From positions 62,001-126,000 of the forward strand of contig NZ_CP107931.1 of assembly GCF_036023875.1 (NCBI RefSeq): a DNA stretch of 64,000 bases. The letters are read 5' to 3'. Shown in pieces: positions 15,191 through 31,505 of this stretch. The position numbers and the translations under genes are program-made. The stretch's first letter is position 1; each line of letters opens with the position of its first letter. Origin of the DNA: Mycobacterium sp. NBC_00419. GTDB lineage: Bacteria; Actinomycetota; Actinomycetes; Mycobacteriales; Mycobacteriaceae. Under the pieces are notes generated by a model. That model did no database searches. It worked only from the letters and a program-made list of their open reading frames with translations, and had not been told where the DNA came from.

Positions 15191-15215
15191 TCCGGGTTTC
15201 TGCGACGATGGTGTG

Positions 15216-15971: not shown

Positions 15972-17093
15972 ATGAGGTTGCCGTGGATGGGCCGCAGCCT
16001 CAATCAGTACTACACACTCACCGCGCTGCTGGCCGCTCGCGGAGCGCAAACCTTCACCTCCCGCGTCAGCGCGTCCTTCCTGTTCACCTTGGGCGTCATG
16101 CTGCTGGTCGTGCTGATCAGCCCGCTTCCTTTGCGGGAGCCGGGCGGCGGCTGGGTGTTGGGTGCGGTCGCGATCGCCTGCTTCGCCAGCGGCGCGATCT
16201 GGCTGCGGCATCGCTGGCCGACCCGCACCGAATCCGCCCTCCTCGCCGGAGGATCGATGGTCGGGGTCCCGTTAGCCTGCCTCACCCCGGTCGACCCCGC
16301 ATACGGCCTATCCGGTGCGACCGCGTTTGCCCTGATGATCGGGTACGTCGCTCTTCTGCACGGAATGCGACTGCTGATCGCCACCATCACGGTGGCCGTC
16401 GCGACGGTCATCTTCCTGGCGGTGACGATCGCCGACCGTGATCCGCTGCTGGCGTTGGTGTCCGCCACGATGCTGCTGTTGCTGTTCGCGTTCGCCGCGT
16501 TCTCGTGTCGCCTCGTGGTCAGGCTGACCGGAACCGCGGTCGGCCCGGACGGTTACGAGCCGCTGACAGGTCTGCTGAACCGGGAGGCGTTCGACGAACA
16601 GGCCGCAACGCTGCTGGCCTCCCGCAACCGCGACGACGACCGCTACCTGGTGGTCGCCCTCGTCAACATCGACAGCTTCGCGGCGATGGTCAGTGTGGTC
16701 GGCAACCGAGGCGGTAACCGGGCCCGGATCGCGGCGGGCCAGGCCCTGCGCGAAACGGTGCGCAGCAACGCGATCGTCGCCCACATCGGCGACGCCGAAT
16801 ACCTCATCGCCGACACGTTCACCACCACCGACCCGTCGCCTCTGGTTGAGCGGGTGCGAGGTGCCATCGCCGCGAGCCCGACCGGGATGACGGCAAGTAT
16901 CGGCGTGGTCAGCACGCCGCTTCGGCCGCTGGCCGCGCATCCACCGCACGAGGTTCTCGACGAGATCGTCGCGCTGGCGACGACGGCGATGTACGAGGCA
17001 CGCCGTGCCGGCGGCAACCAGGCCCGCTACGTGGTCCGCCCGACGCTCAGTGTGCTGGACGAGGACGACGAACCCGAAACCCCCCTGGTCTGA
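15972..17093 (+). CDS. Membrane protein with degenerate GGDEF domain
   Basis: A 373-residue protein. About five to six hydrophobic helices (residues ~35-185) form the N-terminal half, and a GGDEF-like domain (from EPLTGLLNREAFDEQ) the C-terminal half. The catalytic loop reads HIGDAEYLI instead of GGDEF, and the metal-site strand is ALVNIDSFAAMVSVV, so cyclase activity is doubtful. It may bind c-di-GMP or GTP as a receptor, or be inactive. AGGGGA about 8 nt upstream supports the ATG at 15972. It lies 1.7 kb from an intact GGDEF gene. Confidence 0.86.
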   Translation: MRLPWMGRSLNQYYTLTALLAARGAQTFTSRVSASFLFTLGVMLLVVLISPLPLREPGGGWVLGAVAIACFASGAIWLRHRWPTRTESALLAGGSMVGVPLACLTPVDPAYGLSGATAFALMIGYVALLHGMRLLIATITVAVATVIFLAVTIADRDPLLALVSATMLLLLFAFAAFSCRLVVRLTGTAVGPDGYEPLTGLLNREAFDEQAATLLASRNRDDDRYLVVALVNIDSFAAMVSVVGNRGGNRARIAAGQALRETVRSNAIVAHIGDAEYLIADTFTTTDPSPLVERVRGAIAASPTGMTASIGVVSTPLRPLAAHPPHEVLDEIVALATTAMYEARRAGGNQARYVVRPTLSVLDEDDEPETPLV

Positions 17094-17121
17094 TCGGATT
17101 TCAGAGCGGCGGGACTCGTCG

Positions 17122-17448
17122 TCAGGACATCGAGGTGACGTCCACCGACAGGTTCTCGGCGATGGCGCGGGCGGCGGTCCAGTCGCCACCGCGCAGCGCG
17201 GATGCGAGGTCCTCTGTCAGCGGGCTGCGCACCCCGAGTTCGGACAGCCAGTCCGACAGTGTTGCCGAGATCTCGTTGGCTGTCACGGTGACCGTGCGGC
17301 CCTCGTGCAGTCGGTCGGTGAGCCGAAATGTCGGCACCGTCCCGGGCCGAAAATGCGCGGGCCGCGAATGAAGCCAGAAGTTGTTGTGCGTCAATTTTAT
17401 TCGCCGATGAGGCCATCTCATGTGGACATGCCTGCGTGTGAAGAACAT
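17122..17448 (-). CDS. Small His/Arg-rich hypothetical protein
   Basis: A 108-residue protein of unknown function. The first 35 residues are strongly basic and contain six histidines (RRHVHMRWPHRRIKLTHNN and onwards); the rest is an acidic helical segment (TVTANEISATLSDWLSELGV). There is no signal peptide or membrane segment. The ATG at 17448 has an excellent GGAGGA 6 nt upstream, which fixes the start inside a longer open frame. It ends 28 bp from the degenerate GGDEF gene and diverges from the agmatinase gene. The N-terminus could bind metal or nucleic acid; this is conjecture. Confidence 0.68.
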   Translation of the reverse strand: MFFTRRHVHMRWPHRRIKLTHNNFWLHSRPAHFRPGTVPTFRLTDRLHEGRTVTVTANEISATLSDWLSELGVRSPLTEDLASALRGGDWTAARAIAENLSVDVTSMS

Positions 17449-17570
17449 GTAGCTTCCTCCCCCTTTGCGCCCGCCCACCTCTACTGTCCCGCTCCCCGGT
17501 GGTGCAGCAAAGGGCACTAGGTCCTGCACCCGATGAGGCGAACGGCACCGCTGCCGGCGGCGGCCGGAGG

Positions 17571-17576
17571 TATTGT
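17571..17576 (+). promoter_or_regulatory. Leaderless -10 element of the agmatinase gene
   Basis: TATTGT, 7 nt before the ATG at 17584, with no ribosome site between. It has the geometry of a leaderless mycobacterial transcript. Confidence 0.55.
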
Positions 17577-17583
17577 CTGCCCA

Positions 17584-18630
17584 ATGAGTTCCGGCCATAA
17601 CCACAAGCCCAACCGTGAACTGCCACCTGGCATGGCAGAGCAGCTGGATCTGCCCTATGCCGGCGTCGCCTCATTCGGGAACCGCCCCTTCCTCACCGAA
17701 CCCGAGCAGCTCGACTCGTGGCAGCCGGACGTCGCGATCGTCGGCGCGCCGTTCGACGTGGCCACCACCAACCGGCCCGGGGCCCGCTTCGGGCCGCGCG
17801 CCATCCGCTCCACCGCCTATGAGCCAGGCACCTACCACATGGACCTCGGGCTGGAGATCTTCGACTGGCTCGAGGTCGTCGACTTCGGCGATGCCTGGTG
17901 CCCGCACGGATTGACCGAGCAGTCACATGCCAATATCCGCGAGCGGGTGCACACCGTGGCCTCGCGCGGCATCGTCCCGGTGATCCTGGGCGGCGACCAC
18001 TCGATCACCTGGCCGGCCGCCACCGCGGTCGCCGAGGTGCACGGTTACGGCAATGTCGGGATCGTGCACTTCGACGCGCACGCCGACACCGCCGACATCA
18101 TCGACGGCAACCTGGCCAGCCACGGCACCCCCATGCGCCGGCTCATCGAGTCCGGTGCGGTGCCGGGAACACACTTCGTGCAGGTCGGCCTGCGGGGCTA
18201 CTGGCCCCCGCAGGACACCTTCGAGTGGATGCAGGAACAAGGCATGGTCTGGCACACCATGCAGGAGATCTGGGATCACGGGTTCAAGTCGGTGATGGCC
18301 AAGGCGGTGAGCGAGGCTCTCGCGAAGGCCGACAAGCTTTATGTCTCAGTCGATATCGACGTCCTCGATCCGGCACACGCACCGGGTACCGGGACGCCGG
18401 AACCGGGTGGTATCACCAGTGCCGACCTGCTGCGCATGGTCCGCCAGTTGTGCCACGAGCATGACGTGGTCGGCGTCGACGTCGTCGAGGTGGCGCCGGC
18501 TTACGACCACGCCGAACTGACGGTCAATGCCGCCCACCGGGTGGTGTTCGAGGCGCTCGCCGGGATGGCGGCCCAGCGCCGCGACGCCGCCAACGCCAAG
18601 CCGGGCCCGCCCTCCCCGCTGGCCACCTAG
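17584..18630 (+). CDS. Agmatinase/guanidino-acid ureohydrolase (SpeB-like)
   Basis: A 348-residue arginase-fold enzyme that hydrolyses a guanidino group to urea. Binuclear manganese ligands are in GGDHSITW, HFDAHADTAD and SVDIDVLDPAHAPGTGTPEP, all complete. Agmatinases, guanidinobutyrases and guanidinopropionases share these motifs, so the substrate is open: polyamine or guanidino-acid catabolism. The length is slightly above the usual ~310-320 because of N-terminal and C-terminal tails. The last 4 bp overlap the convergent unknown gene. Confidence 0.9.
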   Translation: MSSGHNHKPNRELPPGMAEQLDLPYAGVASFGNRPFLTEPEQLDSWQPDVAIVGAPFDVATTNRPGARFGPRAIRSTAYEPGTYHMDLGLEIFDWLEVVDFGDAWCPHGLTEQSHANIRERVHTVASRGIVPVILGGDHSITWPAATAVAEVHGYGNVGIVHFDAHADTADIIDGNLASHGTPMRRLIESGAVPGTHFVQVGLRGYWPPQDTFEWMQEQGMVWHTMQEIWDHGFKSVMAKAVSEALAKADKLYVSVDIDVLDPAHAPGTGTPEPGGITSADLLRMVRQLCHEHDVVGVDVVEVAPAYDHAELTVNAAHRVVFEALAGMAAQRRDAANAKPGPPSPLAT

Positions 18631-19766
18631 TAGTCGGACTCGGCTGCCAGGATCTCGGCCAGAAAAGCATCCGGCCGGGGCCGGTCCAACCGCTGTCTGA
18701 CGAACCGCCTGATCCGGTCGCGCACCTGGGCCGGTTCGTCGACCGCGACGCCGACCGTCACCGTCGTCGCCGACCAGTCGGCATCCCAGGCCTGGGCCGG
18801 GGTGACCGGCCCGCCGTGATCTCCCACCAGTGCCAGGCTCGCCCGTCCATCGTCGTCGAGAACCCCGTCGGCGCGTAATGTGTTGCAGCGCAGGGAAACC
18901 GAAATGCCGGCCGGGGACCCGGGTCCGAGTGTCTGGGTGTTGATAGCCGCGACGGCCTGCCCGTCTTCGGCGGCGATGATCCACTCGACGGTGTCCTCGG
19001 CGGCGTCGAAGACCGCGCCGGGTACCGCGGTCCAGGCCATCGACGTCACTCCCCTGGCGATCACCGTGGCCGGTTCGAATCGAGTGCCCCGGCCGGCGGC
19101 CAGGGCGTAGTCGTCCCGGCTGCCCGAGGGATAGCCCGCCGGTGTCGCGCCGAGTTCGTCGAGAGCGTCGGCGACCGCCGGCCAGCCCGGGGCCTCGATT
19201 CCCGCGTCGTCGACGAGATCCACGCAGCGGCGCACCAATTCCACGATGCGGGGGTCACCGGCGGCGACGTGACGTCGCAGCGCGTCGGCGTGCGGGGCCA
19301 GCAGCGCGGCGATGTCGGAATCCAGCGTCGCGTCGCCGAAGAAGTCATCGGCGTCGGCGGTGACCACCGCGATCTCGGCATCCAGCACGGCAGCGTCCAG
19401 GCCGGCGATCCCGTCTGGCACGCTGGCCGGCCAGAACCTGCGCAGCCAGTGCCCCAGCGCCAGACGGCGGAGCTGGTCGACCGATCCGGGCAGCACCTCC
19501 AGGCTGGCAATCTCGACCTCCGCGGAAGGCCCCGGCGGAGTGCCCTGGGTTGCCGAGGCGAGGGCGCGGTGCCCCGCTTCGCCGACGACCCGCCACAGCC
19601 AGTCCGCGCGCGCCGGATCAGTCAGGGTGATCTGCGGCGGGCGCTCGGGCGACTCGTCGACCGTCCACGATAGGACCGCACCGTCGACTTCGACGACCGC
19701 GGCCAGCGGCACCGGCGCCGGCGCCGGCCCGGTGCTCCACAGTCCCTCATCGGCGACCAATCTCAT
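18627..19766 (-). CDS. Protein of unknown family, coupled to the 439-aa unknown protein
   Basis: A 379-residue soluble protein with no motif I recognise. It has an acidic, Ala/Asp-rich central helical region (LDAEIAVVTADADDFFGDAT through RRHVAAGDPRIVELVRRCVD) and a beta-rich C-terminal third (VEWIIAAEDGQAVAAINTQT, GISVSLRCNTLRADG). It starts with ATG overlapping the stop of the 439-aa gene by 4 bp, so the two are made together and probably interact. The pair lies immediately downstream of the CHAT-TPR locus in the same orientation, separated only by a divergent membrane-protein gene. Confidence 0.8.
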   Translation of the reverse strand: MRLVADEGLWSTGPAPAPVPLAAVVEVDGAVLSWTVDESPERPPQITLTDPARADWLWRVVGEAGHRALASATQGTPPGPSAEVEIASLEVLPGSVDQLRRLALGHWLRRFWPASVPDGIAGLDAAVLDAEIAVVTADADDFFGDATLDSDIAALLAPHADALRRHVAAGDPRIVELVRRCVDLVDDAGIEAPGWPAVADALDELGATPAGYPSGSRDDYALAAGRGTRFEPATVIARGVTSMAWTAVPGAVFDAAEDTVEWIIAAEDGQAVAAINTQTLGPGSPAGISVSLRCNTLRADGVLDDDGRASLALVGDHGGPVTPAQAWDADWSATTVTVGVAVDEPAQVRDRIRRFVRQRLDRPRPDAFLAEILAAESDY

Positions 19767-21082
19767 TGGGCCACCTGCACTTCCAGCATCGCTTTGATGC
19801 GCTGCCGGTGATCGAGGCTCACCGAGCGTGCCACTCCCTCGAGTAGCGCCCTGATGTCCTCGACATCGTCGCAGGGCTCCTGCCACACGTCCCGGCCATG
19901 CAGCCGGGCCCACAATCGGCTCAGGTAGGGGCGCGCGAACGTCGCGAGATCGTCGACGACGTGGCGCTGGCGGGGATGGATGGGTTCGCCCGCCGCCAGT
20001 ACCCGCCGCGCATGCAGCACGTAGGCCTCCTTGCGAAGCCGGGCCTGGACGGTGGCCGCCAGCTGATAGCGGGCCACGGCGTGCTCATCGAGTGGTGCCA
20101 GCTCACCGGACACCTCGATCCCGGCGACCAGGGTGGCCTGTTTGTCCTCGCCGAGGAACCCCCAGGGCGCGCAGGCCCGATCGACCTCTTCGGCGCACAG
20201 CAGCGGAACGTCGGGCAATTCGTCGCGGTCGAGGGCGCGACGCAAGGTGGCCCGCACCCGGTCGACGACCCCGCGGTCCAGCGGGCGCTCCCCCTCGGTG
20301 TCGGCGACCACCTGCGGCGGCTCTAGCGGCAGGTGCGAGGTGAGCCCCACCGCAACGAGCGACCACGGCAGACGTGCGCCGGCGATGCGGGCGGACGCGC
20401 CCACGTTGTAGGGCGTCGCATCGGCGATCAGGGCAGACCACACACGTTGTCGGGCAACCCGTTCACGGTGCGAATCGGCCGGGCCCAGCACCGTGGTCAG
20501 GCCGGCGAAGAACGGGCCGGATATGGTGTCGCCCGGTTGGACATCGGCCCAGCTGTGCTGCAGCTGCCGAGACAACCGGGCCAGGACCTGCGGGTTGGCC
20601 AGGTGGCGGTTGAGTACCTCGACGTCGGTACGGTCGCGGTCGTCGTGGACGGCCCGCAGAGTCGCGGCAGCCACGTCCGCACCGTCCTGGGCGGGTCCGC
20701 CCTTGGTCACCGCCAATTCGAAACACACCGGGAAGTACAGATCCTGGGCGTTGCCCGTGGTCACGCGTAGTCGGCGGCGTTGCGCCTTCATCAGGCCGAA
20801 CCACGCAGCGGTGCAGCGCAATGTCTCGGCGTGCTCGGCGATCAGGCGCGTCATCTCCCCGGCCACCTCGGTGCTGACGAACGGGGCCGAGTAGGCGGCA
20901 TTGGCCCGCAGCCGCAACACCAGTGGGTCGAGGATGCGTTTGACGGTCCGCCGCAGCGGCCCGCCGTCGTCACCGCTGAGCACCTCGACGCCGGGTCCGA
21001 TCGCCCGCCAGGCGCGGTCGATCACCGCCCGGCGCGGATGCGTCGCGCCGGCGGTCATCACCGTGCCAGGCCCGGCGTCCAT
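19763..21082 (-). CDS. Protein of unknown family upstream of the 379-aa unknown protein
   Basis: A 439-residue, Arg-rich, mostly helical protein without signal peptide, membrane helix or known catalytic motif. Features include RRTVKRILDPLVLRLRANAA (residues ~45-65), a cysteine-containing ACAPWGFLGEDKQATLVAGI segment and a basic C-terminal helix. The ATG at 21082 lies 6 nt after a reverse-strand TATTCT, a leaderless start. It forms an ATGA-coupled pair with the 379-aa gene. Genomic position next to CHAT-TPR suggests a shared pathway, but no function can be read. Confidence 0.8.
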   Translation of the reverse strand: MDAGPGTVMTAGATHPRRAVIDRAWRAIGPGVEVLSGDDGGPLRRTVKRILDPLVLRLRANAAYSAPFVSTEVAGEMTRLIAEHAETLRCTAAWFGLMKAQRRRLRVTTGNAQDLYFPVCFELAVTKGGPAQDGADVAAATLRAVHDDRDRTDVEVLNRHLANPQVLARLSRQLQHSWADVQPGDTISGPFFAGLTTVLGPADSHRERVARQRVWSALIADATPYNVGASARIAGARLPWSLVAVGLTSHLPLEPPQVVADTEGERPLDRGVVDRVRATLRRALDRDELPDVPLLCAEEVDRACAPWGFLGEDKQATLVAGIEVSGELAPLDEHAVARYQLAATVQARLRKEAYVLHARRVLAAGEPIHPRQRHVVDDLATFARPYLSRLWARLHGRDVWQEPCDDVEDIRALLEGVARSVSLDHRQRIKAMLEVQVAQ

Positions 21083-21088
21083 CCCGTC

Positions 21089-21094
21089 AGAATA
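21089..21094 (-). promoter_or_regulatory. Leaderless -10 element of the two-gene unknown operon
   Basis: TATTCT on the reverse strand, 6 nt from the ATG at 21082. The two unknown genes therefore have their own promoter, separate from the CHAT-TPR operon. Confidence 0.55.
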
Positions 21095-21148
21095 AGGGCC
21101 GGGCAAAGTTGGGTTCGGTAGCCCGGCTGCCGCGACAGCCTTGCCGGC

Positions 21149-21775
21149 ATGTCTGACACACTGCTGGGCGCCATTGCCGTCGTCTCCGCTATCGCACTCG
21201 CAACGATCATCGTCGCCGCCGGTCTGTGCGGCCAGCCGCCCCGGCCGAAGCGGCGCAGGCCCACGGTCGCCCGCTCCGTCGCACTCGGAACGGTGTGGGC
21301 CGTCGCCGACTCTGCCGATCCCCTCGTGGTCATCGAGGTCGAAAGCGTCGACGGCGAGCGCTTCGCCGGACGGCTCTGCCATCGCCAGGGCGACCCGGAC
21401 GCCTCGTCGTTGCGGCCGGGAATGATCCTGCTGGTCTCGTTCGACCCGCAGGCCCGTGAGCGGCTGTCGCTGGCCGACGAGGTGACCGCCGTGCGCGCCG
21501 CCTTCACCGACACCCAGGCGGACCTGATCCGGCACGGCACCCGGTCGTCGGGTGTGGTGACCGGGATGCGGGCCACCGGATATGCCGGCGAAGACCTCCG
21601 CGAGGTGGAACTCGACGTGATGGTGCGCAGGCGCGGCGGCGGCCAGTTCCCGGCCCGCGAGATCACCGTGGTCCCGGCCTCGGAGCTGCCCAAAGTCGAG
21701 CCGGGCAGCATCGTCGATACCTACTACCGGCCCGACAACGAGTCGACGATCGCGGTGTGCCTGCCCCAGGCGTGA
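21149..21775 (+). CDS. Membrane-anchored protein with duplicated beta-rich domain
   Basis: A 208-residue protein with one N-terminal transmembrane helix (residues 5-27) followed by a basic stop-transfer stretch (PPRPKRRRP). The remainder looks like two related units, each with a conserved Pro-Gly turn and a phrase resembling L-x-PG-x-x-x-x-V-x-x-D: RLCHRQGD...LRPGMILLVSFDPQ and VMVRRRGG...VEPGSIVDTYYRPD. I do not know the family. It is transcribed against its neighbours, nested between the CHAT gene (5-bp gap between ends) and the two unknown genes (66 bp). Confidence 0.76.
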   Translation: MSDTLLGAIAVVSAIALATIIVAAGLCGQPPRPKRRRPTVARSVALGTVWAVADSADPLVVIEVESVDGERFAGRLCHRQGDPDASSLRPGMILLVSFDPQARERLSLADEVTAVRAAFTDTQADLIRHGTRSSGVVTGMRATGYAGEDLREVELDVMVRRRGGGQFPAREITVVPASELPKVEPGSIVDTYYRPDNESTIAVCLPQA

Positions 21776-21780
21776 CGGGG

Positions 21781-23124
21781 TCACCGGGCACCGTCCACCG
21801 AGAACGTCACCAGCGCCGCCCAGTACAGCGGGCAGGCGCTGGTGTCGCCGTCGCGCCAGCGCCGCATCTGCGTGCGCTGCCAGGCGTTGACGGCGAGCGC
21901 GGCGTCGTCGGCCTCGTGGGCCGCGTCGACGGCGATGACGACGTCGGCCATCGGGTCGCCGATCGATGAGGTGAACCGGCGGTAGCCGGCGGTGGTGGGT
22001 AGTGACCACAGCGTCGCGGTGACCAGCTGGCTGCCGCACAGCACCATCGCGGCCACCAGTCCGGTGGCCTCGTCGAACTGGTAATCCCCACCCGAACCGC
22101 AGGCCAGCAGTGCCACCCGCGGCGGCATCGGCAGCTGCGCGGACATCAGATCGGCGGCCAGCAGCGGGCGGTGATCGCCGACCGGCTCGGCAGCGCCCGG
22201 CTGCGCCGCGGTGCAGGCCAGGTGAATCGCGGCGCGGTCGGCGTAGCCGTGGGCGCGGTCGGCGGCGCTGGCGTGTCCGACATAGAGCAGCCGGCTCGGC
22301 TGTTGCTGCAGCTGGGCGGCCAACCACACCCGGTCGGCGTCGGTGCGGCGGAACAGCTCGACGGCCGATTGCGCATCAGGCAGGACCGGGCGGCGTGCCA
22401 TTACGTCGGCGAAATGCCGGGACAGCCGGGTGTCGGGCGACGGCCGGCCCAGCACCGAGCCCAGCGGCGAGTCGGGGCGCTGGCCGGGCACCCGCGGGTC
22501 GAGTACCAGAAGTGCTGCTGTGGAACGTCTTTCGGGCCAACGGGCCGGGGTACGCGGGGCGTGTGCGATGTTGGGTGGCACGGCCATCAGCACATCGGCC
22601 AGTTCCATCAGCCGATGGCCCTCGGTCAGGGTGGAGATGTCGGCGAGTTGCCAGGGGATGCGGGCGGCCGTGGTTCCCCTGGTGGTGATCGCTGCGGCCC
22701 GGGCTGCGATCAACTCCTCGCGGCTGGGGCCGGCCAGCGGCACGGCCAGCAGGCCCCACGGGATGCGGGCCAGCCGGGCGCTCGGCGAGATATACAGCAG
22801 CGGAAGGGGATCGGAAACGCAGTCGGCCAGTAGCTGCCAGGCCGGGGCGGAGATCAGCAGCACGCCGAGGATGTAGGCCAGCGTCAGCTCACGCTCGGCG
22901 GTGGCGAACGGGCCACTGGTCAGCGCCCGGTTCAGCGCTTCGGCCAGCGTCTCGGCGCCCTCGGGGTCGGGCAGTGCGCCTTGTAGCTCCTCGATGGCCG
23001 CCAGCAGGATCGGTTCCTCGACCACCCAGGTCACCGTGCGCTCGGGCTGGCCGACCACCCGCAGGCTGCCGTAGGTCGCGACGCCCAGATCGGCGAACCG
23101 CAGCACGAGCGTGGCGGCGGTCAT
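21781..23124 (-). CDS. CHAT-domain caspase-like cysteine protease
   Basis: A ~447-residue protein whose C-terminal half is a CHAT domain (caspase HetF associated with TPRs). The predicted catalytic dyad is His in RLLYVGHASAAD (codon 22273-22275) and Cys in VALLACGSGGDYQF (codon 22099-22101), about 58 residues apart, followed by GLVAAMVLCGSQLVTATLWS. CHAT proteins are clan-CD proteases, often paired with TPR sensors; some act in programmed death or type III CRISPR-guided cleavage. The start at 23124 overlaps the TPR stop by ATGA; in-frame ATGs at 23130 and 23139 are alternatives. The N-terminal ~200 residues have no recognised domain. Substrate unknown. Confidence 0.88.
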   Translation of the reverse strand: MTAATLVLRFADLGVATYGSLRVVGQPERTVTWVVEEPILLAAIEELQGALPDPEGAETLAEALNRALTSGPFATAERELTLAYILGVLLISAPAWQLLADCVSDPLPLLYISPSARLARIPWGLLAVPLAGPSREELIAARAAAITTRGTTAARIPWQLADISTLTEGHRLMELADVLMAVPPNIAHAPRTPARWPERRSTAALLVLDPRVPGQRPDSPLGSVLGRPSPDTRLSRHFADVMARRPVLPDAQSAVELFRRTDADRVWLAAQLQQQPSRLLYVGHASAADRAHGYADRAAIHLACTAAQPGAAEPVGDHRPLLAADLMSAQLPMPPRVALLACGSGGDYQFDEATGLVAAMVLCGSQLVTATLWSLPTTAGYRRFTSSIGDPMADVVIAVDAAHEADDAALAVNAWQRTQMRRWRDGDTSACPLYWAALVTFSVDGAR

Positions 23125-24809
23125 GGCCATGTCGACCATGCCGGGCCGTCAGAAGTCACGGTCTGCCCGTAGCGGCTCTGCGCCAGCTGCCGGTAGCGCT
23201 CGAGGATCGGCGCGCGGGCAGGGTCCATCTGCAGTCTCGGCAGCGGACCCAGCGTGGTCAGGGTGAGGCCGTCGACCGATCCCCCGCCCGCGGCAAGTGC
23301 CTCTTCTGCCGCGGTGTCGGCTACCACCGTCGTACTGACACCGCCGTCCCAGGCCAATGCCTCGTCGAGCGGTTCATGGGCGAACGTCCCTCGTGCACTG
23401 TGGTATTCGATGAGTTCACTGAGCAGCTCGGTGTTCTCCCACTCCCAGGCCACCGAGAAGGCGCCGGCCAGCATCCGCCCCGAAACATGCGCAGCCCAGC
23501 GCCAGCGCGAGTCCGCGTCCAACATCGAGTACCGCACCGAGTCGACGGCAAGGGCGGCCGGGATCTTCAGCTCGGCTGCCCGCTCCAGCTTCGCCATCGC
23601 ACTGCGGTGCGCGTCGCTTCCGGGCTCGACCCGGGTGACACCCAGCGATGCCGCTTGCCGGGCCTCGGTGGCTTTGAAGTCGTCGGTCGGCTCGCTGATT
23701 CCGTCGAAGCCCATATCCGCCAGCGCATCCGCCCGCCAGATGTTGCCGAGGTGATCGTCGAGCCGGGCGTACTGCAGCCAGCTCGAGCGTGGCCACTGAT
23801 CCAGGAGTTCGCGAGCCTGCGCCACCTGTTCGACGGCCTCGGCGAATCGACCGCGGTACACCGATATCCAGCTGCGCTGCAACAGAATCCGGTGGATATG
23901 AAGCGGCTTGCCAAGTTCGCGCCAATGCCGTTCGGCGTGCGACCAGGACTCGTCGGCGGCCTCCACCATTCCGACACCCAGCCGGGTCAGCCCGAAGTAC
24001 AGCCACGACCGCGAGACGTCATGGGCGCGGTTGCCCTCGGCGATCACCGGGTAGGCCCCGCCGACGAGGCGTTCGGTGGTCTGGTGGTCACCTCGTATCC
24101 AGCTGGCGGCGGCGGTCTCGAGTTCTGCTCGCGCGCAATACAATGTCCAGTCCCGGCGCTGCGCCCGGGCGCCGGCCCGCTGCAGCCACTGCTCGCCTTC
24201 GGCCAGCCGGCCGGTCTCGACACAGAACCGGCCGTAGGCCAGACCACCGGTCACGAGCAGCTGGTCGGCGGCATCCGAGGGTTCGGTGAGGTCGTCGACG
24301 ACCGGAATGATGGTGCGCCACAACGCTGCCGCGCGGGGGTGCAGGTCGTCGTCGGATAACGCCGTCGCGCACAGGACACCGGCCAGCGCGCCGAGGTGTT
24401 GCCGGTCGGCGGCCAGGTCGGGGAATCGCTGCACGCAGTCGTCGTCCTGCAGAGTCGCCAGCTGGGCGGCGGCCGCTTCGTGCTCCCCCTGCGCCGCGGC
24501 CAGGCCCACCCGCAGGAACTGGGCCCGCAGCCGGTAGCTCGACGTCATGTGGTCTTCCTCGGATCCGGGCGCGGCCTGCGAGTAGGCCGCCAGGCACTCG
24601 TCGATACGCCGCAGGCACTCTTCGGTGCCGTCGTAGGCGGTTCGGTTCAGATACAGCTCGCCGAGCAAGGCGAACACTTCCAGAGCCAGATCGTCGCGGT
24701 TGTCGCGCTCGATCTCGGGCAGGACCGACAGCAGAAGATCTTTGGCCGCTTCTTCCTTGGCGGCCAGGATGAGTTGGCGAGCACGCTCCAGCTCGCCGGG
24801 GATCGACAC
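23121..24809 (-). CDS. TPR-repeat protein coupled to the CHAT protease
   Basis: A 562-residue all-helical protein built of TPR-like hairpins from the N-terminus (RQLILAAKEEAAKDLLLSVL, ALLGELYLNRTAYDGTEECL) through GRFAEAVEQVAQARELLDQW in the middle. The last ~120 residues (from RWRWAAHVSGRMLAGAFSVA) resemble the linker that precedes a CHAT domain in fused TPR-CHAT proteins. The GTG at 24809 is 6 nt after TATGAT, so the operon probably begins leaderless here. It overlaps the CHAT start by 4 bp. The role is likely sensing or regulating the protease; the trigger is unknown. Confidence 0.85.
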   Translation of the reverse strand: MSIPGELERARQLILAAKEEAAKDLLLSVLPEIERDNRDDLALEVFALLGELYLNRTAYDGTEECLRRIDECLAAYSQAAPGSEEDHMTSSYRLRAQFLRVGLAAAQGEHEAAAAQLATLQDDDCVQRFPDLAADRQHLGALAGVLCATALSDDDLHPRAAALWRTIIPVVDDLTEPSDAADQLLVTGGLAYGRFCVETGRLAEGEQWLQRAGARAQRRDWTLYCARAELETAAASWIRGDHQTTERLVGGAYPVIAEGNRAHDVSRSWLYFGLTRLGVGMVEAADESWSHAERHWRELGKPLHIHRILLQRSWISVYRGRFAEAVEQVAQARELLDQWPRSSWLQYARLDDHLGNIWRADALADMGFDGISEPTDDFKATEARQAASLGVTRVEPGSDAHRSAMAKLERAAELKIPAALAVDSVRYSMLDADSRWRWAAHVSGRMLAGAFSVAWEWENTELLSELIEYHSARGTFAHEPLDEALAWDGGVSTTVVADTAAEEALAAGGGSVDGLTLTTLGPLPRLQMDPARAPILERYRQLAQSRYGQTVTSDGPAWSTWP

Positions 24810-24815
24810 GGCTGC

Positions 24816-24821
24816 ATCATA
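24816..24821 (-). promoter_or_regulatory. Leaderless -10 element of the TPR-CHAT operon
   Basis: TATGAT on the reverse strand, 6 nt before the GTG at 24809. It is a strong -10 hexamer, and no Shine-Dalgarno is present. Confidence 0.6.
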
Positions 24822-24853
24822 AGTCGGCCGCGCCGTCAGTCCGGACAAACGCC

Positions 24854-24888
24854 GGGATGGCGGACGTGCGTGACACGTCCGCCATCCC
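24854..24888 (-). terminator. Hairpin terminator downstream of the lpqH-like gene
   Basis: A perfect 15-bp stem (GGGATGGCGGACGTG, 24854-24868, with 24874-24888) and a 5-nt loop, 19 nt after the lipoprotein stop. No T-run follows. It separates the lipoprotein gene from the TPR-CHAT promoter. Confidence 0.75.
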
Positions 24889-24906
24889 TCCCCGTGCTGG
24901 CTCAAC

Positions 24907-25401
24907 TCACTTGCAGCTGACGGTGATCTCGAACTTCTTGGTGATCATCCCGGCCATCGGGTTCTTCATGTCGGCGCCGGCGGCCTCACCACTGATGGTG
25001 TAGGTGCTGCCGTCAACCTTCACGTCGGCAGAACCGGTCTTGACTCCCATGGTGTCGCTCACCGCGAGTGCGCTGCCATCCACGACCATGCCAAGGGAGG
25101 TCACCTTCGGTGTGGGTTCGTCGGTCATGACCACACCGAGACCCTGCTGACCGCCGACTGCTCCACTGGCGATGTTGATGTTGCCGCCCTGCTTGACGCA
25201 CGTCACCGTGCTGAGGTCTAAACCCGGCAGATCATTTCCGTCGACCTTCACCGAGGTCGATCCCCCGCTGGCGACGGTGGCACTGGTCGGCGCGGAACCT
25301 GTTGCCGACGCGGTGCCCTTGCCGCTGTTGTTGTCCGAGCACGCCATCAGCAGCATGCTGCAGCCGATCACGCCGATACCGACCGCGAGAACTCGTTTCA
25401 C
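24907..25401 (-). CDS. lpqH: LpqH (19 kDa antigen)-family lipoprotein
   Basis: A 164-residue envelope lipoprotein. The lipobox LMAC is at residues ~18-21 (SMLLMACSDNNSGKG), followed by a Ser/Thr/Gly-rich linker that is a typical O-glycosylation region in LpqH. The folded domain shows the family pattern VTCVKQGGNINIASGA and ADMKNPMAGMITKKFEITVS, with two cysteines expected to pair. M. tuberculosis LpqH is a TLR2-active surface antigen. The GTG start has AAGGGA 7 nt upstream. The gene is monocistronic and ends at a strong hairpin. Confidence 0.9.
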   Translation of the reverse strand: MKRVLAVGIGVIGCSMLLMACSDNNSGKGTASATGSAPTSATVASGGSTSVKVDGNDLPGLDLSTVTCVKQGGNINIASGAVGGQQGLGVVMTDEPTPKVTSLGMVVDGSALAVSDTMGVKTGSADVKVDGSTYTISGEAAGADMKNPMAGMITKKFEITVSCK

Positions 25402-25504
25402 GGGTTTTCCCTTCGCTCTGTGCGTCGCCCAGTTGGCGCCGTCAGGAGCAAGTACAGGTTGCGGCCGCGGCTACCGATACCAAACTTCTTGGTCCGTAGG
25501 GCTC

Positions 25505-26968
25505 TCAGAAGGGCGGCGGATCCTCGTCGGGACGTGGTGAAGTCGTACCGAAGGCGTTGTCGGCGTGAACGGTGGGTCTTCGGTTGTGAGCACGTTCGGC
25601 AGCGATGCGAGCGGCCCGGTTCTGATCCCGGGTTCGCGTGCGGATGGGCATCATCGTGGTGCGCTCGCCGGAGCGATCGTCGTCGGGCCGGACCGACCGC
25701 GACGTGATGTCACCCGTGGGGTCGCATAGTCGGGGGAATAGCACTGCGCTACCCGGCGTGGTGACATATCTGCGACCACTGGGAAGTGTCCAGACCACGG
25801 TCCCGTCCGGTAATTGTCGGTCGAGCCAACCCCAGAAAGTCTTCAACAAATGGTGAACACGGCACAGGCATTTGATGTTGGAGGCGTGCGTGGGTCCAGC
25901 CGGCCACGGGATCGTATGGTCGAGGTCGCAATGGGTTGCCGGCCGATCACAACCGGGTGCTCGGCAGGTCAGATCGCGCGCACGTACGAAGTCGGCCAGC
26001 GCCGTCGAGGGCCGATACCCGCGCTCAGGGCACGCGTCGGCGGGATTCATTAGCGGCCGCACCCGCGCCTGCCTGGCCAACTCGGCGACCAACTCCGCGG
26101 ACACCAGCGTGCCGGATCCCAAGAGATAGGCCGGCTTGTCTGACCGGTCTTCCACGCTGGACTGTTCGGCGACGATGTGGATCACCACCCCGCTGCTCGC
26201 CGGAGATTGTCCAGCCGGGCATTCCGCACTCCCGCACCGGCACGCCAGCCGATCCATCCCCACCGCCAGCGCACCCAGGGCGTCGGCGCGACGCTGGTCG
26301 ACCGTGCGCGGATCATCCGCGCACACCGTCCGCGCGAGTGCGTCGAGCCGGTTGTCGAGGGCGGCGGCATCGGTGTTCATCAACGCCCCGGTCAGCTCCG
26401 CGGTGCCGTCACCCTTGTCCGACAACGTCACCCGCCGACCCAGGGCCTTTTCCTGAGCTTGGCGGACGGCATCGCGATCATGGCGGGCGATGACCTGATC
26501 GATCATGGTCGCCAGCCGGCCTCTGGTCATCGACGGCCACTGGGCCACCAGCGCGGCGAGCTCATGGTCCACCTCGGCAGTGACGGTGGCGTCCGTGATC
26601 AGCTCGGTGCGGTAGTAGATCGTCTGGAACACACCCATGTCGATATCGCCGGCGAGGAACACCTCGCTGACGGCCGGCAGCGTCAGCATGCCCAGTGCGT
26701 ATGTCATGTAACTGCCGGCTTTGGCCAAGCTGATCCTTAATGCCGAAGCGACCTCCGCACCGACGGCTGCCCAGGTGTCGACGGCCCAGTCCGCACGCTC
26801 GCCACGCTCAGCGCGCCGCAACTCGAACAACTCGCAGATCGCCCGCAATCGCAAGGCGGCAGCGCGGTTCTCAGCCCGCGAGGCCAACCCGATCTGCGTG
26901 ATCAGCCCGCGAGACTGCGCCGTATCCGACGGCGCGAAGTAGTCGTAGTGCGGACTTCGTGCGAACAT
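25505..26968 (-). CDS. 13E12-repeat family protein (DUF222 with HNH nuclease domain)
   Basis: A 487-residue member of the REP13E12/DUF222 family, abundant in mycobacteria. DUF222 fills residues ~20-330; the HNH motif near residue 365 onwards reads CDLDHTIPWPAG then NIKCLCRVHHLLKTF, with preceding CRAPGCDRPATH as zinc-binding cysteines. The HNH residues are complete, so nuclease activity is possible; the biological role is unsettled. The ATG at 26968 lies 7 nt after CATACT and is preferred to an upstream TTG at 26998. No flanking repeats mark it as mobile. Confidence 0.9.
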   Translation of the reverse strand: MFARSPHYDYFAPSDTAQSRGLITQIGLASRAENRAAALRLRAICELFELRRAERGERADWAVDTWAAVGAEVASALRISLAKAGSYMTYALGMLTLPAVSEVFLAGDIDMGVFQTIYYRTELITDATVTAEVDHELAALVAQWPSMTRGRLATMIDQVIARHDRDAVRQAQEKALGRRVTLSDKGDGTAELTGALMNTDAAALDNRLDALARTVCADDPRTVDQRRADALGALAVGMDRLACRCGSAECPAGQSPASSGVVIHIVAEQSSVEDRSDKPAYLLGSGTLVSAELVAELARQARVRPLMNPADACPERGYRPSTALADFVRARDLTCRAPGCDRPATHCDLDHTIPWPAGPTHASNIKCLCRVHHLLKTFWGWLDRQLPDGTVVWTLPSGRRYVTTPGSAVLFPRLCDPTGDITSRSVRPDDDRSGERTTMMPIRTRTRDQNRAARIAAERAHNRRPTVHADNAFGTTSPRPDEDPPPF

Positions 26969-27037
26969 GCGTTCGAGTATGCCACTACCCCACGACAAGA
27001 TCAGGGCACAACGGCGCCGCCGCGGCCAACCCCCTGC

Positions 27038-28300
27038 TCAGGCCTTGGCGAGCTGCTTCTGCGCGTAGCGGGCAGCCCACTCGCTGCGCGAGCGGATCGA
27101 GACGTCGACGTCGGTGGCCTTGGCGCGCAGGGCGCCGACGCCGGCCTGCTCCTTGGGCGTGCGGGCGAATGGATCCCAGCTGAAGAACCGGCAGGCGTTG
27201 CGCCAGGTGATCTTGTCGATGTCGGCGTCGTCGGCGCCTGCGGCAGTCAGTTCGGCCAGAACCTGCTCGGGAGCATCCGGCCAGAAGCAGTCCGAGTGCG
27301 GGTAGTCGCACTCCCAGGCGATGATGTCGATGCCGATCTCGTGGCGCAGCTTCAGCGACGTCTTGTCGGTGACGTAGCAGGCCAGCGAGTGTTCCCGGAA
27401 GACGTCGCTGGGCATCTTGTCGCCGAAGTCGCGGCGTAGCCATTTCTGGTTGGTGTAGTGGCGATCGCAGCGGTCCAGGTAAAACGGGATCCAGCCGATG
27501 CCGCCCTCGGAGAAGGCGAATTTCAAGTCGGGATAGTTGCGCATCGCCGGGCCCCACAGCAGATCCTGCGCACACATCGCCGAGATCTGGGTGGCCAGGA
27601 TGATCAGGTTGTCGATCGGTGCGTTGGGCGCCATGCTGATCGCCCCGAAGCCGGTGCCGATGTGCAGGCACATGACCACGTTGCACTCCGAGAGCGTCCG
27701 GAACACCGGCCCCCAGTAGTCGTCGTCGTGGTAGCTCGGAAGTCCTTCCAGGTGAGGCAGTTCCGGCATGGTGACCGCCCGGCAGCCCTTGGCGGCCACC
27801 CGGCGAATCTCGGCGCACATCCCCTCGGGCGTCCACGTCGGCAGGATCGCGATCGGGATGAAGCGGTCCGGGTAGGAACCGGCCCACTCGTCGATATGCC
27901 AGTCGTTGTAGGCCGACACCATGACCAGGGTGACGTCTTCGCGTGTCATGTTCAGGTGCCGGGCGGAGAAGCCGGTGAACGTCGGGAAGCACATCGAGGC
28001 CAGGATGCCGTTGCGATTCATATCGCGGACTCGCTCGTGCACGTCGTAGACGCCCGGGCGCATCTCGGCGAAGCCGGCCGGGTCGCGGCCCCACTCCTCG
28101 GCCGGCCAGGACACCACGGCGTTGAGTCCGCTGACACCCTGCGGGCGACCCTGATACATCCACTGATCGACGCCGCGATCGTCGGTCACGACGATCGGGG
28201 CCTCGGGCTTGTACTTGGCCGGGACGTGGTTGAGGAACATGTCGGGCGGTTCGACCACGTGGTCATCGATGCTCACCAGAATCAGGTCGTCGACATTCAT
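27038..28300 (-). CDS. Amidohydrolase family metal-dependent hydrolase
   Basis: A 420-residue TIM-barrel hydrolase of the amidohydrolase-2 (ACMSD-like) family. Diagnostic stretches are VSIDDHVVEPPDMF at the N-terminus (the first strand, with DxH in place of the usual HxH), VVMCLHIGTGFG (metal His) and AWECDYPHSDCFWPD (the acidic metal ligand). Members of this mycobacterial group are often linked to lipid or aromatic catabolism, but the substrate is unknown. The ATG at 28300 lies 7 nt after a reverse-strand TACAAC. It diverges from an AraC regulator with only 25 bp between start codons, so it is the likely target of that regulator. Confidence 0.88.
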   Translation of the reverse strand: MNVDDLILVSIDDHVVEPPDMFLNHVPAKYKPEAPIVVTDDRGVDQWMYQGRPQGVSGLNAVVSWPAEEWGRDPAGFAEMRPGVYDVHERVRDMNRNGILASMCFPTFTGFSARHLNMTREDVTLVMVSAYNDWHIDEWAGSYPDRFIPIAILPTWTPEGMCAEIRRVAAKGCRAVTMPELPHLEGLPSYHDDDYWGPVFRTLSECNVVMCLHIGTGFGAISMAPNAPIDNLIILATQISAMCAQDLLWGPAMRNYPDLKFAFSEGGIGWIPFYLDRCDRHYTNQKWLRRDFGDKMPSDVFREHSLACYVTDKTSLKLRHEIGIDIIAWECDYPHSDCFWPDAPEQVLAELTAAGADDADIDKITWRNACRFFSWDPFARTPKEQAGVGALRAKATDVDVSIRSRSEWAARYAQKQLAKA

Positions 28301-28325
28301 GGCCTCAGTTGTACCCTCGATAATC
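28301..28325. promoter_or_regulatory. Overlapping divergent leaderless promoters
   Basis: This 25-bp gap separates two start codons. It carries a reverse -10 TACAAC (28308-28313) for the amidohydrolase and a forward -10 TACCCT (28312-28317) for the AraC gene, overlapping by 2 bp. Each box is 7-8 nt from its start codon. The -35 regions fall within the opposite coding sequences, so simultaneous firing looks impossible. Confidence 0.6.
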
Positions 28326-29186
28326 GTGACCGTCTCCGCACATTCGGCCAGAGACTTGGCCCAAACGGCCAGAATTAGGCCGGGCTCCACACCGGCCAAC
28401 GTTGCCCAGATCGAACTGCGGCGCGGTGGCCGGGTCCTGGCCGGAAGCTATCTGTACGAAGGTGACCTACTGGTGACCGGATGGCACGTCCACGACGTTC
28501 ACCAGATTGAGTACGCCATCGGCGGGGTGGTGGAGGTGGAGACCGCAGCCGCGCACTATCTTCTGCCGCCGCAGCAGGCGGCGTGGATTCCGGCCGGCCT
28601 GCAACACCAGGCGACGATGAACCCTTCGGTCAAGACGTTGGCGGTGATGTTCGACCCGTCGGTGATGTCCAACCCCGGGGACCGGGCGCGCATCCTGGCA
28701 GTGTCCCCGCTGCTGCGCGAGATGCTGCTCTATGCGATGCGCTGGCCGATCGCCCGGGCGGCAGGTGACGCGGTGTCCGACTCGTTCTTCGTCACCCTGG
28801 CCAACCTGGTGGCCGAGGCGCTGGATCATGAAGCGCCACTGAGCCTTCCGACGTCCGAGGACCCCGTTGTCGCCGCCGCGATGGCCTATACCAAGGAGCA
28901 CCTGCAGTCGGTCAGCCTCGAGCAGGTGTGCCGTGCCGTCGCGGTATCCGAGCGCACGCTGCGTCGTCAATTCCAGAGTGAGGCCGGATTGTCCTGGCGC
29001 ACTTATCTTCTGCACGCACGGATGCTGCGCGCCATGGCCCTGCTCGCGGCCCCTGGTCAGCGGGTGGCGCAGGCCGCCTCGGCCGTGGGCTTCGACAGCG
29101 TCGGGTCATTCACCCGGGCGTTCACCCAGTTCTGCGGCGAGACGCCGTCGTCATACCGGTCCAGAGTCAACAAGACCGCCCTCTGA
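28326..29186 (+). CDS. AraC-family transcriptional regulator
   Basis: A 286-residue regulator. The N-terminal cupin sensor (about residues 25-110: DLLVTGWHVHDVHQIEYAIG and LLPPQQAAWIPAGLQHQ) precedes two helix-turn-helix units at the C-terminus (SLEQVCRAVAVSERTLRRQF and VAQAASAVGFDSVGSFTRAF). The start GTG at 28326 follows TACCCT. Its promoter interlocks with that of the divergent amidohydrolase, so binding at one would affect both. The inducer is unknown. Confidence 0.9.
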   Translation: MTVSAHSARDLAQTARIRPGSTPANVAQIELRRGGRVLAGSYLYEGDLLVTGWHVHDVHQIEYAIGGVVEVETAAAHYLLPPQQAAWIPAGLQHQATMNPSVKTLAVMFDPSVMSNPGDRARILAVSPLLREMLLYAMRWPIARAAGDAVSDSFFVTLANLVAEALDHEAPLSLPTSEDPVVAAAMAYTKEHLQSVSLEQVCRAVAVSERTLRRQFQSEAGLSWRTYLLHARMLRAMALLAAPGQRVAQAASAVGFDSVGSFTRAFTQFCGETPSSYRSRVNKTAL

Positions 29187-29533
29187 GGACCCCGCCCGGC
29201 GGGCCGCCCGAGCGTGCCAGCGCAACCGCAGGATCAGCAGCCCGCGATGCGCCTCGAATCCCACCGACAGCGGGTCGCGCAACACCGATGACCGGTGCCG
29301 CCGTGTTGATGCCATGGGCCCAGTGAACCGCAGTCGGGCGAACCGATGTTGTCGTGCAGGTGGCCGGTGTCGTGCCGGTGCGCGACGACCCGTCGGAGCC
29401 GCGGGCCGCCGAGGGCACCCCAGCGGGCTCGCAGCCACCACCCAGCTTCTTCGCAGAAACTGCCTCTAGCCTGTGGTTTCGCGTCCCGATGACTGTGACG
29501 CAGCTGGTGGAGATGGGCACGGGAGGCACACAC
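29187..29533. other. 347-bp gap without a supported gene
   Basis: Only short arginine/proline-rich frames without ribosome sites are present, with no clear codon bias. Its last 30 bp hold GGGAGG, the ribosome site of the secreted-protein gene at 29534. No hairpin or repeat stands out. Confidence 0.5.
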
Positions 29534-29995
29534 GTGAACAAGGTCATCGGGCTTGGGCTTGGCGCCTTCGCCCTTACTGCGGTATCGGTCACATTCGTCG
29601 GCACAGGCGTCGCAGCCGCCGACGACTACGCGGGCAAGTCCTACTCGGATGCGTCCTCAGCCATCAGCGGCGCCGGGCAGAAGGCGGTGATCGCGTCATC
29701 GGTCGGCGACTCCGTCGGCGAGGGTGACTGCGTGGTGACGCGCTCGCAGAAGGCGCCCTGGCTCAAGGGTGACAACTTCAGCCCGGTCACCGACACCGTC
29801 CTGCTGTTCTTGAACTGCAACGCCAAGCTGGCCTCGGCAGGCAAGCCGGGCAACTCGCTGGCGAGCCCGGAGGGCGCGGCCGAGAAGGCCACCGAGGATG
29901 CGCAGGCCGCCCAGGAGCAACAACAAGCTGCTCAGCAGGCCGCCAGTGACCAGAGCCAGTCCAGCGAATTGCTCGACGCCAACAACAAGCACTGA
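29534..29995 (+). CDS. Secreted protein with Gln/Ala-rich tail
   Basis: A 153-residue exported protein. The signal peptide (VNKVIGLGLGAFALTAVSVT) ends near GVAAADD. The mature domain (AGKSYSDASSAISGAGQKAV, SVGEGDCVVTRSQKAPW, LLFLNCNAKLAS) contains two cysteines; a Q/A/E-rich helical tail of ~40 residues follows. The family is common in mycobacteria but I know no function; the SYSDA...ISGAG pattern is faintly PASTA-like. The GTG at 29534 has GGGAGG 7 nt upstream. Confidence 0.8.
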   Translation: MNKVIGLGLGAFALTAVSVTFVGTGVAAADDYAGKSYSDASSAISGAGQKAVIASSVGDSVGEGDCVVTRSQKAPWLKGDNFSPVTDTVLLFLNCNAKLASAGKPGNSLASPEGAAEKATEDAQAAQEQQQAAQQAASDQSQSSELLDANNKH

Positions 29996-30041
29996 CGTCT
30001 CGGGTTGCCGCCGCGGTCGCAGGCGGCAAGGATCGCGGGCA

Positions 30042-31505
30042 ATGGATGCCATATTCGCCGCCGAACTAGCGGACCTCGATGCGATCGGCCAAGCCGAGCT
30101 GGCCGCGGCCGGTGAGGTGTCCGCAGTCGAATTGCTCGACGCCGCGATCTGGCGGCTGGAAGCTGCGCGCCGGCTCAATGCCGTCATCACCGACCTCTTC
30201 GACCGGGGCCGCGAGCAGGCCGCGACCCTCGACGAGTCCGGGGTGTTGCGAACCGGTGCGGCCGGCCCGCTGGCCGGAGTTCCCTTCCTGCTCAAGGATC
30301 TTGGCGCCTCGCTGGCCGGCGCGCCCGAGGCGATGGGCAGCCGGGCACTGCGCACCTATGTCGCCGACCAGACCGCCTGGCTCGTCGAGCGCTATCTGGA
30401 TGCCGGTCTGGTGGTGTTCGGCAAGACCAACACACCGGAGTGGGGAAACCACTGCACCACTGAGCCTTCGCTGTTCGGTCCGACCGTCAACCCGTGGTCA
30501 CCGGCCATCACACCGGGCGGCTCGTCGGGCGGGTCGGCCTCAGCCGTGGCGGCCGGGGTCGTACCCGCGGCTTCCGGCGGCGACGGCACCGGCTCGATCC
30601 GAGTGCCCGCGTCGTGTTGCGGGCTGGTCGGGCTCAAACCACGCCGTGCACGCACGTCGTTCGCACCGGGCGGGCACAGCCTGGAAGGGCTGGCCGTCGA
30701 ACACGCACTGACCCGGACCGTGCGCGACAGTGCGGCACTGCTGGACGCGGTCACCGGATCCGCGCCAGGCGACCCGTACAACGCGGCCCTGCCCGCGCAG
30801 CCGTTCGCCGCCGCGATCCGCCATGCCCCTACGGCCCAGCGGATCCTGGTCAGCACGCAGTCGCCGTTCCCGGGCCCCGGCACCGACCCGCTGGTGGCGG
30901 CCGCAGTCGAGGCCGCCGCAGGCGCACTGGAGAACCTGGGCCACCGGATCGCACCGGGTGCCCCGGCCTTCGACGCCGACGCGGTGGCCGACGCCATCGC
31001 CGTCCTGCACAACGTGAGCAACGTGCAGCTGTACAACCTCGCGACGGCCCATCTGGGCCGCGAGCCGCGCGAGGACGAATTCGAGCCGAGCAGCTGGGTG
31101 ATGATGCGCGAAGGCTTCACCACCACCGGCGTCGCCTACGCCGACGCCATCGACTCGCTGCACGGTCAGACGCGGCGTTTCGCGGCCGGGATGGCCGGTT
31201 ACGACGTGCTGCTGACGCCGACGCTGCTGGCCCCGCCGCCGCCCTATCGGGTACTCGACCAACCGCGTGGCACCACCCGGGCGTTCTTCGACGTCGAGTT
31301 CGCCCACACCGGATGGACGACGATGGCCAACGTCACCGGATGGGCCTCCATTTCGCTGCCGCTGGCCGCCACCCCCGACGGCCTCCCGATCGGGGTGTTG
31401 CTCACCGCACCCGAGGAGACGGTGCTGCTCCAGCTGGCCGCTCAGTTGGAGATCGCGCTGCCGTGGGCGGGCCGCCGGCCCCCGGGCTGGCTGGGCCGGA
31501 ACTGA
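30042..31505 (+). CDS. Amidase signature (AS) family amidase
   Basis: A 487-residue amidase. The Ser-cisSer-Lys triad is complete: Lys in GVPFLLKDLGAS, the first Ser in TPGGSSGGSASAVAAGVVP and the nucleophile region GGDGTGSIRVPASCCGLVGL. It hydrolyses an amide to acid and ammonia; the substrate is not apparent. The ATG at 30042 begins the conserved sequence. It lies 46 bp after the secreted-protein gene and 58 bp before an alpha/beta hydrolase gene. Confidence 0.92.
   Translation: MDAIFAAELADLDAIGQAELAAAGEVSAVELLDAAIWRLEAARRLNAVITDLFDRGREQAATLDESGVLRTGAAGPLAGVPFLLKDLGASLAGAPEAMGSRALRTYVADQTAWLVERYLDAGLVVFGKTNTPEWGNHCTTEPSLFGPTVNPWSPAITPGGSSGGSASAVAAGVVPAASGGDGTGSIRVPASCCGLVGLKPRRARTSFAPGGHSLEGLAVEHALTRTVRDSAALLDAVTGSAPGDPYNAALPAQPFAAAIRHAPTAQRILVSTQSPFPGPGTDPLVAAAVEAAAGALENLGHRIAPGAPAFDADAVADAIAVLHNVSNVQLYNLATAHLGREPREDEFEPSSWVMMREGFTTTGVAYADAIDSLHGQTRRFAAGMAGYDVLLTPTLLAPPPPYRVLDQPRGTTRAFFDVEFAHTGWTTMANVTGWASISLPLAATPDGLPIGVLLTAPEETVLLQLAAQLEIALPWAGRRPPGWLGRN

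Follow-up and report, generated by a model that had tools for sequence, protein, structure and literature searches.

Here we describe a locus in a 64-kb window (64,000 nucleotides, positions 62001-126000, the whole stretch of DNA that was analysed) of the 5.6-Mb chromosome of Mycobacterium sp. NBC_00419, at which a CHAT-type caspase-like protease is encoded together with a tetratricopeptide repeat (TPR)-type partner and two orphan proteins, p434 and p379. In bacteria, CHAT caspase-like proteases have been treated chiefly as effectors of cell death or of CRISPR systems. Read along the minus strand, the genes follow one another in the order LpqH-family lipoprotein, TPR (23121..24809, 562 amino acids), CHAT (21781..23124), p434 (19763..21082, 431-439 amino acids depending on the start chosen) and p379 (18627..19766, 379 amino acids), and between CHAT and p434 a further gene, mem208 (21149..21775, 208 amino acids), lies on the plus strand, divergent from p434 and converging on CHAT. 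In the window sequence, both the TPR/CHAT pair and the p434/p379 pair are joined by ATGA overlaps.

The CHAT protease, its partners and their conservation

The CHAT open reading frame (ORF) spans 21781-23139 (452 amino acids), with a likely start at the ATG at 23124 that gives a protein of 447 residues and forms the ATGA with the TPR stop codon at 23121-23123. The window protein matched the Pfam profile PF12770 with an expectation value (E) of 1.9e-9; its score of 37.9 bits exceeded the cut-off of 24, and the match covered positions 20-285 of the 289 in the profile. The same profile was matched at E <= 0.01 by 9/9 members of a CHAT set (the window protein and eight distant proteins). The predicted catalytic His and Cys are H289 (motif GHAS, codon 22273..22275, minus strand) and C347 (motif ACGSGGD, codon 22099..22101, minus strand) in the numbering of the 452-residue ORF; both were invariant in 21/21 mycobacterial rows, in 9/9 rows made up of the window protein and eight distant actinobacterial proteins, and in 120/120 rows among the matches listed, of 1231 homologues found. 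The window gene encodes a CHAT-domain protein with a TPR-type partner, and the invariance of the dyad, which is predicted to be catalytic, supports a live-looking protease.

For the window protein, the TPR assignment is weak, with a TPR_12 score of 13.6 bits that lies below the cut-off of 30.1, whereas homologous partners are clearly TPR proteins, scoring above the Pfam cut-off in loci L145, L147, L148 and L152 (TPR_12 at E 6e-21 in L147 and 2e-16 in L145); a profile of the window TPR family also matched the distant TPR partners. The GTG start codon of the TPR gene follows a TATGAT -10 element (24816..24821, minus strand) at a distance of exactly 6 nucleotides (nt). This spacing recurred in 17/19 loci, namely the window and 18 of 20 mycobacterial loci (L040 and L049, having no aligned start, were omitted), with L047 and L048 as the exceptions and the remaining upstream sequence diverged; such conservation bears out the leaderless promoter of the TPR gene. 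The p434 gene is seemingly leaderless too, since upstream regions read by eye carry TAT[TC]CT 6-7 nt before its start; in the window this -10-like element is TATTCT (21089..21094, minus strand), 6 nt before the likely ATG at 21082. The original prediction, made from the window alone, had named the CHAT-type protease, both residues, the ATGA coupling and the leaderless TATGAT, all of which were borne out, while its TPR assignment stands for the homologues and falls below the cut-off for the window protein.

Conservation of the neighbourhood, which had been proposed as a check, was examined by tblastn in 20 mycobacterial loci drawn from 25 other genomes with a CHAT match. TPR, CHAT, mem208, p434 and p379 occurred in the same order in 20/20 of these loci, the mem208 match often being partial and some module copies being frame-broken (e.g., p434 and TPR in L035), and the lipoprotein gene was present in 19/20, the twentieth locus (L049) stopping at a contig edge. 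Among 61 relatives, CHAT and p434 were each detected in 26 and TPR in 25; all three were present in 25, the two exceptions being genomes that are 72% and 84% complete. When 198 genomes of the genus were compared, 125 carried both CHAT and p434 and 69 carried neither; p434 without CHAT was seen in 4 (three cases of a fragment and one of an incomplete genome) and CHAT without p434 in 0 (Fisher 4.7e-49, uncorrected for ancestry). Several module parts are lost or broken in the degenerate loci L160-L163. This near all-or-none co-inheritance with p434 indicates that the four genes TPR, CHAT, p434 and p379 are probably gained and lost as a unit.

The module also extends beyond the genus. In a class-wide draw of 345 genomes, p434 was found in 26 and CHAT in 29, and in six distant loci (L145, Streptomyces-type; L146, Streptomyces; L147, Nocardia; and L149, L150 and L151, which include Jiangella) p434, p379, TPR and CHAT run in the same direction as overlapping or nearly abutting genes. 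The same order was seen in two plasmid-collection records, and in one genome (G132) the four genes are split over contigs. On a 1.6-Mb linear plasmid of Streptomyces sp. NBC_01237 (L166, 11643-14579), the TPR (106-544) and CHAT (594-977) matches fall within a single 979-residue frame, a fusion that agrees with the coupling of the two genes in the window. In G294 (L152) the module is rearranged: its p434 is highly divergent (44.6 bits) and its TPR protein carries a fused Ser/Thr kinase; the kinase-fused gene adjoins a gene for an FHA-FtsK/SpoIIIE-type ATPase, hinting at a secretion-linked variant. One Nocardia genome holds a second TPR-CHAT pair (L148, 6496-9403) without p434 or p379 within the 15 kb read.

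By synteny, phyletic co-occurrence and gene order in other genera, p434 and p379 are predicted to be core parts of the module, and the earlier view that nothing relevant adjoins the protease gene did not hold. Together, these patterns support a putative functional unit of four proteins. No informative family assignment for p434 or p379 emerged from Pfam, NCBIfam or PADLOC, their weak Pfam matches (Ig-like, PC_rep) being dismissed as noise, and sequence profiles of the PDB gave weak matches or none for the four core proteins (best E 0.089). With a mean column identity of 80%, p434 is the most conserved of the four (CHAT 72%, TPR 69%, p379 63%), and of the 48 positions that do not vary in its 118-sequence alignment, 13 are Arg and 1 is Lys. 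The AlphaFold2 model of p434 is confident (predicted local distance difference test, pLDDT, 91.4) and nearly all-helical. Both p434 and p379 have a variable stretch between conserved halves, and these stretches could be protease cut sites. The mem208 product has an N-terminal hydrophobic segment (by eye), and relatives of it were found in Nocardia (L165) and in the Streptomyces-type locus L145.

A promoter box at the module and across genomes

The intergenic region between mem208 and p434 contains a box, AAGTTGGGTTCGGTAGC (21106..21122, plus strand), that lies 26 nt before the mem208 ATG and was found at <=1 mismatch in 24/25 mycobacterial loci; the best matches of a reversed-pattern control had 3-6 mismatches. 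Only L164 departs from this pattern; there p434 is frame-broken and mem208 gave no match. In 24/24 loci the ATG taken as the mem208 start stands 25-26 nt downstream of the box, with diverged sequence in between, and as the distance to the p434 -10 element varies, the box was rejected as a plain -35/-10 promoter of p434. Outside the genus, the box precedes other envelope-type or mem208-related genes: in Nocardia loci it stands (2 mismatches) before an LpqH-family gene instead, and in the Streptomyces-type locus it occurs with 3 mismatches before a 278-residue protein that matches the mem208 profile. Decayed modules were seen in L160 (7187-8102; G457, 4.50 Mb), L161 and L162, with p434 and p379 fragments and, in L160, TPR fragments; the remnants in L160 and L162 retain a box with 2 mismatches to its T-version.

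The box-bearing neighbour in the window is the lipoprotein gene (24907..25401, minus strand; Myco_19_kDa, PF05481, E 1.6e-30), upstream of which a degenerate box, AGTTTGGTATCGGTAGC (3 mismatches), is followed by TGTACTTG at the -10 place (25449..25486, minus strand). A relative of this lipoprotein gene adjoins p434 in the Nocardia loci L147 and L165. A terminator-like inverted repeat (by eye) lies at about 24856-24886, between the lipoprotein and TPR genes, and arms similar to this repeat, GGCGGGCGTGC/GCACGTCCGCC, occur upstream of TPR in several other loci; the two genes are therefore probably separate transcription units. A literature search with five 11-13-mers of the box gave matches that, among those listed, look unrelated by title, which does not in itself establish the novelty of the box.

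Genome-wide, the promoter class is defined by AAGTTGGGWTCGGTAGC followed by a -10-like TGnACTTG, and 60 exact-core mycobacterial sites gave the consensus AAGTTGGGATCGGTAGC-N12-gTGnACTtG. Sites with <=1 mismatch to AAGTTGGGWTCGGTAGC occurred in 132 of the 198 genomes: 125/129 with p434 (mean 2.33) and 7/69 without it (mean 0.12; Fisher 3.7e-38). The figure for p434-bearing genomes is inflated by the locus site itself, because the pattern was derived from module loci; after two locus sites per genome had been subtracted, 51/129 p434-bearing genomes still had more (Mann-Whitney 4.9e-6). The association was repeated in a Nocardia draw with a 16-base pattern, in which a site was present in 61/98 genomes with p434 and 1/20 without it (Fisher 1.8e-6). 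In the window's own genome, the AAGTTGGGTTCGGTAGC version has only one 0-mismatch site, at mem208, and exact core sites also stand before genes for a two-transmembrane (two-TM)-type, a WCPGQ-type (by eye) and a GFFKKAKEAG protein.

Downstream genes were surveyed in 60 stretches outside the module, among the matches listed of 309 sites, with five stretches from genomes lacking p434; the ORFs were assigned by script, some of them wrongly framed, and the classes named by eye. The recurrent families were small WCPGDP-type proteins whose N termini resemble signal sequences (13), two-TM-type proteins (5), and lipoprotein-like, GLFKKAKD and PE proteins (4 each), PE membership being confirmed for L201 (E 4.3e-32). 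In four genomes (L201, L202, L220 and L239) a PE-family gene follows the box at a distance of 68-71 nt, linking the motif to PE surface proteins. Nocardia sites were seen before a gene for a DUF4870-type membrane protein (L244, L249, L252, L255-L258 and L265), with the Pfam match checked on L252.

A proposed protease-controlled switch and its alternatives

Taking these observations together, we tentatively propose, at a probability of roughly two in five, that p434, p379, TPR and CHAT form a four-protein regulated-proteolysis module tied to a small regulon of promoters for exported and envelope proteins; the box makes it likely that the module and a set of envelope promoters work together. Because the presence of the module tracks a rare promoter motif before genes for surface and secreted proteins, it may be a protease-controlled gene switch and not a suicide enzyme. 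Beyond co-occurrence, every mechanistic step, including the identity of regulator, substrate and trigger, is one that we infer. The TPR protein would serve as a sensor or adaptor that holds the protease inactive; upon a signal, probably from the envelope, CHAT would cut p434 or p379 specifically, and the cut would switch a complex from one state to another, so that the box promoters are activated or silenced. On this scheme, p434 and p379 would be regulator and/or substrate and CHAT the trigger, p434 being, with its 13 Arg and 1 Lys among the invariant positions, the best candidate for contacting DNA. A more specific version, which we hold doubtful, is that p434 (with p379) represents a new family of transcription regulators whose recognition site is the box TTGGGWTCGGTAGC and whose activity is switched by specific, TPR-gated CHAT cleavage; this would make up a CRISPR-free, caspase-controlled switch of the envelope and secreted proteome, found in the majority of the sampled Mycobacterium and Nocardia genomes.

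Several observations weigh against this proposal. After subtraction of the two locus sites, 78/129 p434-bearing genomes have no further site at <=1 mismatch, and 37/98 Nocardia genomes with p434 have none at that threshold; the Jiangella loci lack a recognisable box (best 5 mismatches), and A[CA]T[TC]G was found at the shared offset in only 18/60 core sites. By a crude rule, an N-terminal hydrophobic segment was present in 20/53 downstream ORFs compared with 16/80 control ORFs, so the excess of exported proteins downstream of the box is modest. In G407 and G031 (L164 and L035) an unbroken CHAT gene accompanies a p434 that is spread over more than one frame, as is p379 or TPR; barring sequencing errors, CHAT can therefore persist after p434 has been disrupted. 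Shared ancestry may also cause the correlations, as the genomes are non-independent.

In one alternative, an ordinary transcription or sigma factor encoded elsewhere recognises the box, the module being merely one of its targets and the genome-wide correlation reflecting shared phylogeny. We think this unlikely, although three observations favour it, the last two of which also count against the proposed switch: the box occupies a -35 position, like an activator or sigma site; Pfam and NCBIfam scans recognised a DNA-binding domain in none of the module proteins; and at least two genomes without p434, G433 (L221, L222) and G519 (L241), keep sites before regulon-type genes (by eye), so that dependence on p434 is not strict or the regulator lies elsewhere. 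Such a factor fits less well with an association repeated in two genera, with the 62/69 p434-lacking genomes that have no site at <=1 mismatch, and with a box that flanks the module in Mycobacterium, in Nocardia and, at 3 mismatches, in the Streptomyces-type locus. That the CHAT protein is a scaffold or pseudo-protease in a module that works without proteolysis is very improbable: sequence searches against solved structures matched no CHAT protein, but a dyad invariant in all 120 listed and 8/8 distant rows would be unusual for a dead enzyme.

The original prediction had leaned towards programmed death, and a defence or death module, in which the TPR or orphan proteins sense infection or damage and CHAT cleaves p434, p379 or cellular targets to cause arrest or death, with the box promoters incidental or auto-regulatory, is likewise an account that we consider improbable. 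The patchy presence of CHAT (125/198 genomes) would suit it, and so would the literature: one paper calls CHAT and TIR key effector domains of bacterial defence systems and mentions peptidase effectors (PMC10907252), and CATRA and caspase systems are mentioned in two others (PMC8195603; PMC12657218). On the other hand, PADLOC models matched none of the 10 window proteins scanned, five of them from the module region, nor any of 4 distant module proteins, and the lipoprotein neighbour, constant in 19/20 mycobacterial loci, is unlike what is found in mobile defence islands. With a Streptomyces p434 (P0243) as tblastn query, no match was obtained in 50,697 phage records and only 6 in 72,556 plasmid records, all >1 Mb and one of them a 2.66-Mb Nocardia replicon; together with the conserved neighbours, these results also counter the idea of a phage- or plasmid-borne system in mycobacteria. 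Thus, the conserved dyad and coupled TPR gene of the earlier interpretation stand, its claim that the protease has no partner nearby does not, and its death frame is rivalled by the promoter regulon, which points to control of envelope gene expression at least as much as to programmed death.

If the proposed switch is real, it would connect caspase-like proteolysis with the control of envelope genes for lipoproteins, PE-type proteins and small secreted proteins, through a module present in 125/198 mycobacterial genomes sampled and seen at a fixed locus in 20 loci, and two orphan protein families, p434 and p379, would gain a context.

Comparison with known systems

Our literature search showed no mycobacterial CHAT-TPR system among the matches listed, and the nearest comparisons come from other bacterial proteolytic and conflict systems. 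Bacterial gasdermin operons place a caspase-like protease beside its presumed substrate. The module shares this arrangement of a caspase-like protease in an operon with a presumed substrate, but no gasdermin Pfam match was found in the module proteins and p434 is all-helical in its confident model. As the earlier reading had anticipated, Pfam scans of the five module-region proteins matched neither a gasdermin nor a nucleotidyltransferase.

The vWA-MoxR ternary conflict systems (VMAP) are multi-gene systems that occur also in actinobacteria (PMC7159879). The module is likewise a multi-gene system of actinobacteria but, unlike VMAP, its proteins have no vWA or MoxR Pfam match. CATRA systems, in the two papers that mention them, resemble the module in combining a caspase, a TPR protein and, by name, an associated further protein; they differ in that no CATRA model was matched by the module proteins or the distant homologues scanned, even though Pfam includes CATRA-C (PF20270). 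Any homology to CATRA might be too remote for the reach of hidden Markov models.

The closest parallel is offered by the type III-E Craspase, or CASP, system, which comprises Cas7-11, the TPR-CHAT protein Csx29, Csx30 and CASP-sigma, and in which the CHAT protease Csx29 cleaves Csx30 to relieve the inhibition of the sigma factor (PMC10028731). Like Craspase, the module pairs TPR with a CHAT domain bearing a His/Cys dyad, the two being fused in the Streptomyces relative L166, and its neighbours without a known family are candidate substrates; Craspase thus provides a precedent for CHAT proteolysis that controls transcription. The module departs from Craspase in that its TPR and CHAT proteins come from two genes, which overlap in the window and occupy distinct frames in the mycobacterial loci; in addition, none of its proteins was recognised as a sigma factor, and the promoters linked to it are those of envelope genes. 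Nor is there a CRISPR array nearby, as had been predicted, the interval 15000-32000 containing only two-copy chance families of repeats. On these tests, the module does not belong to the type III-E CRISPR, gasdermin or VMAP systems, nor detectably to CATRA; its mode of action is perhaps analogous to that of the Craspase regulatory arm, although it falls outside that system.

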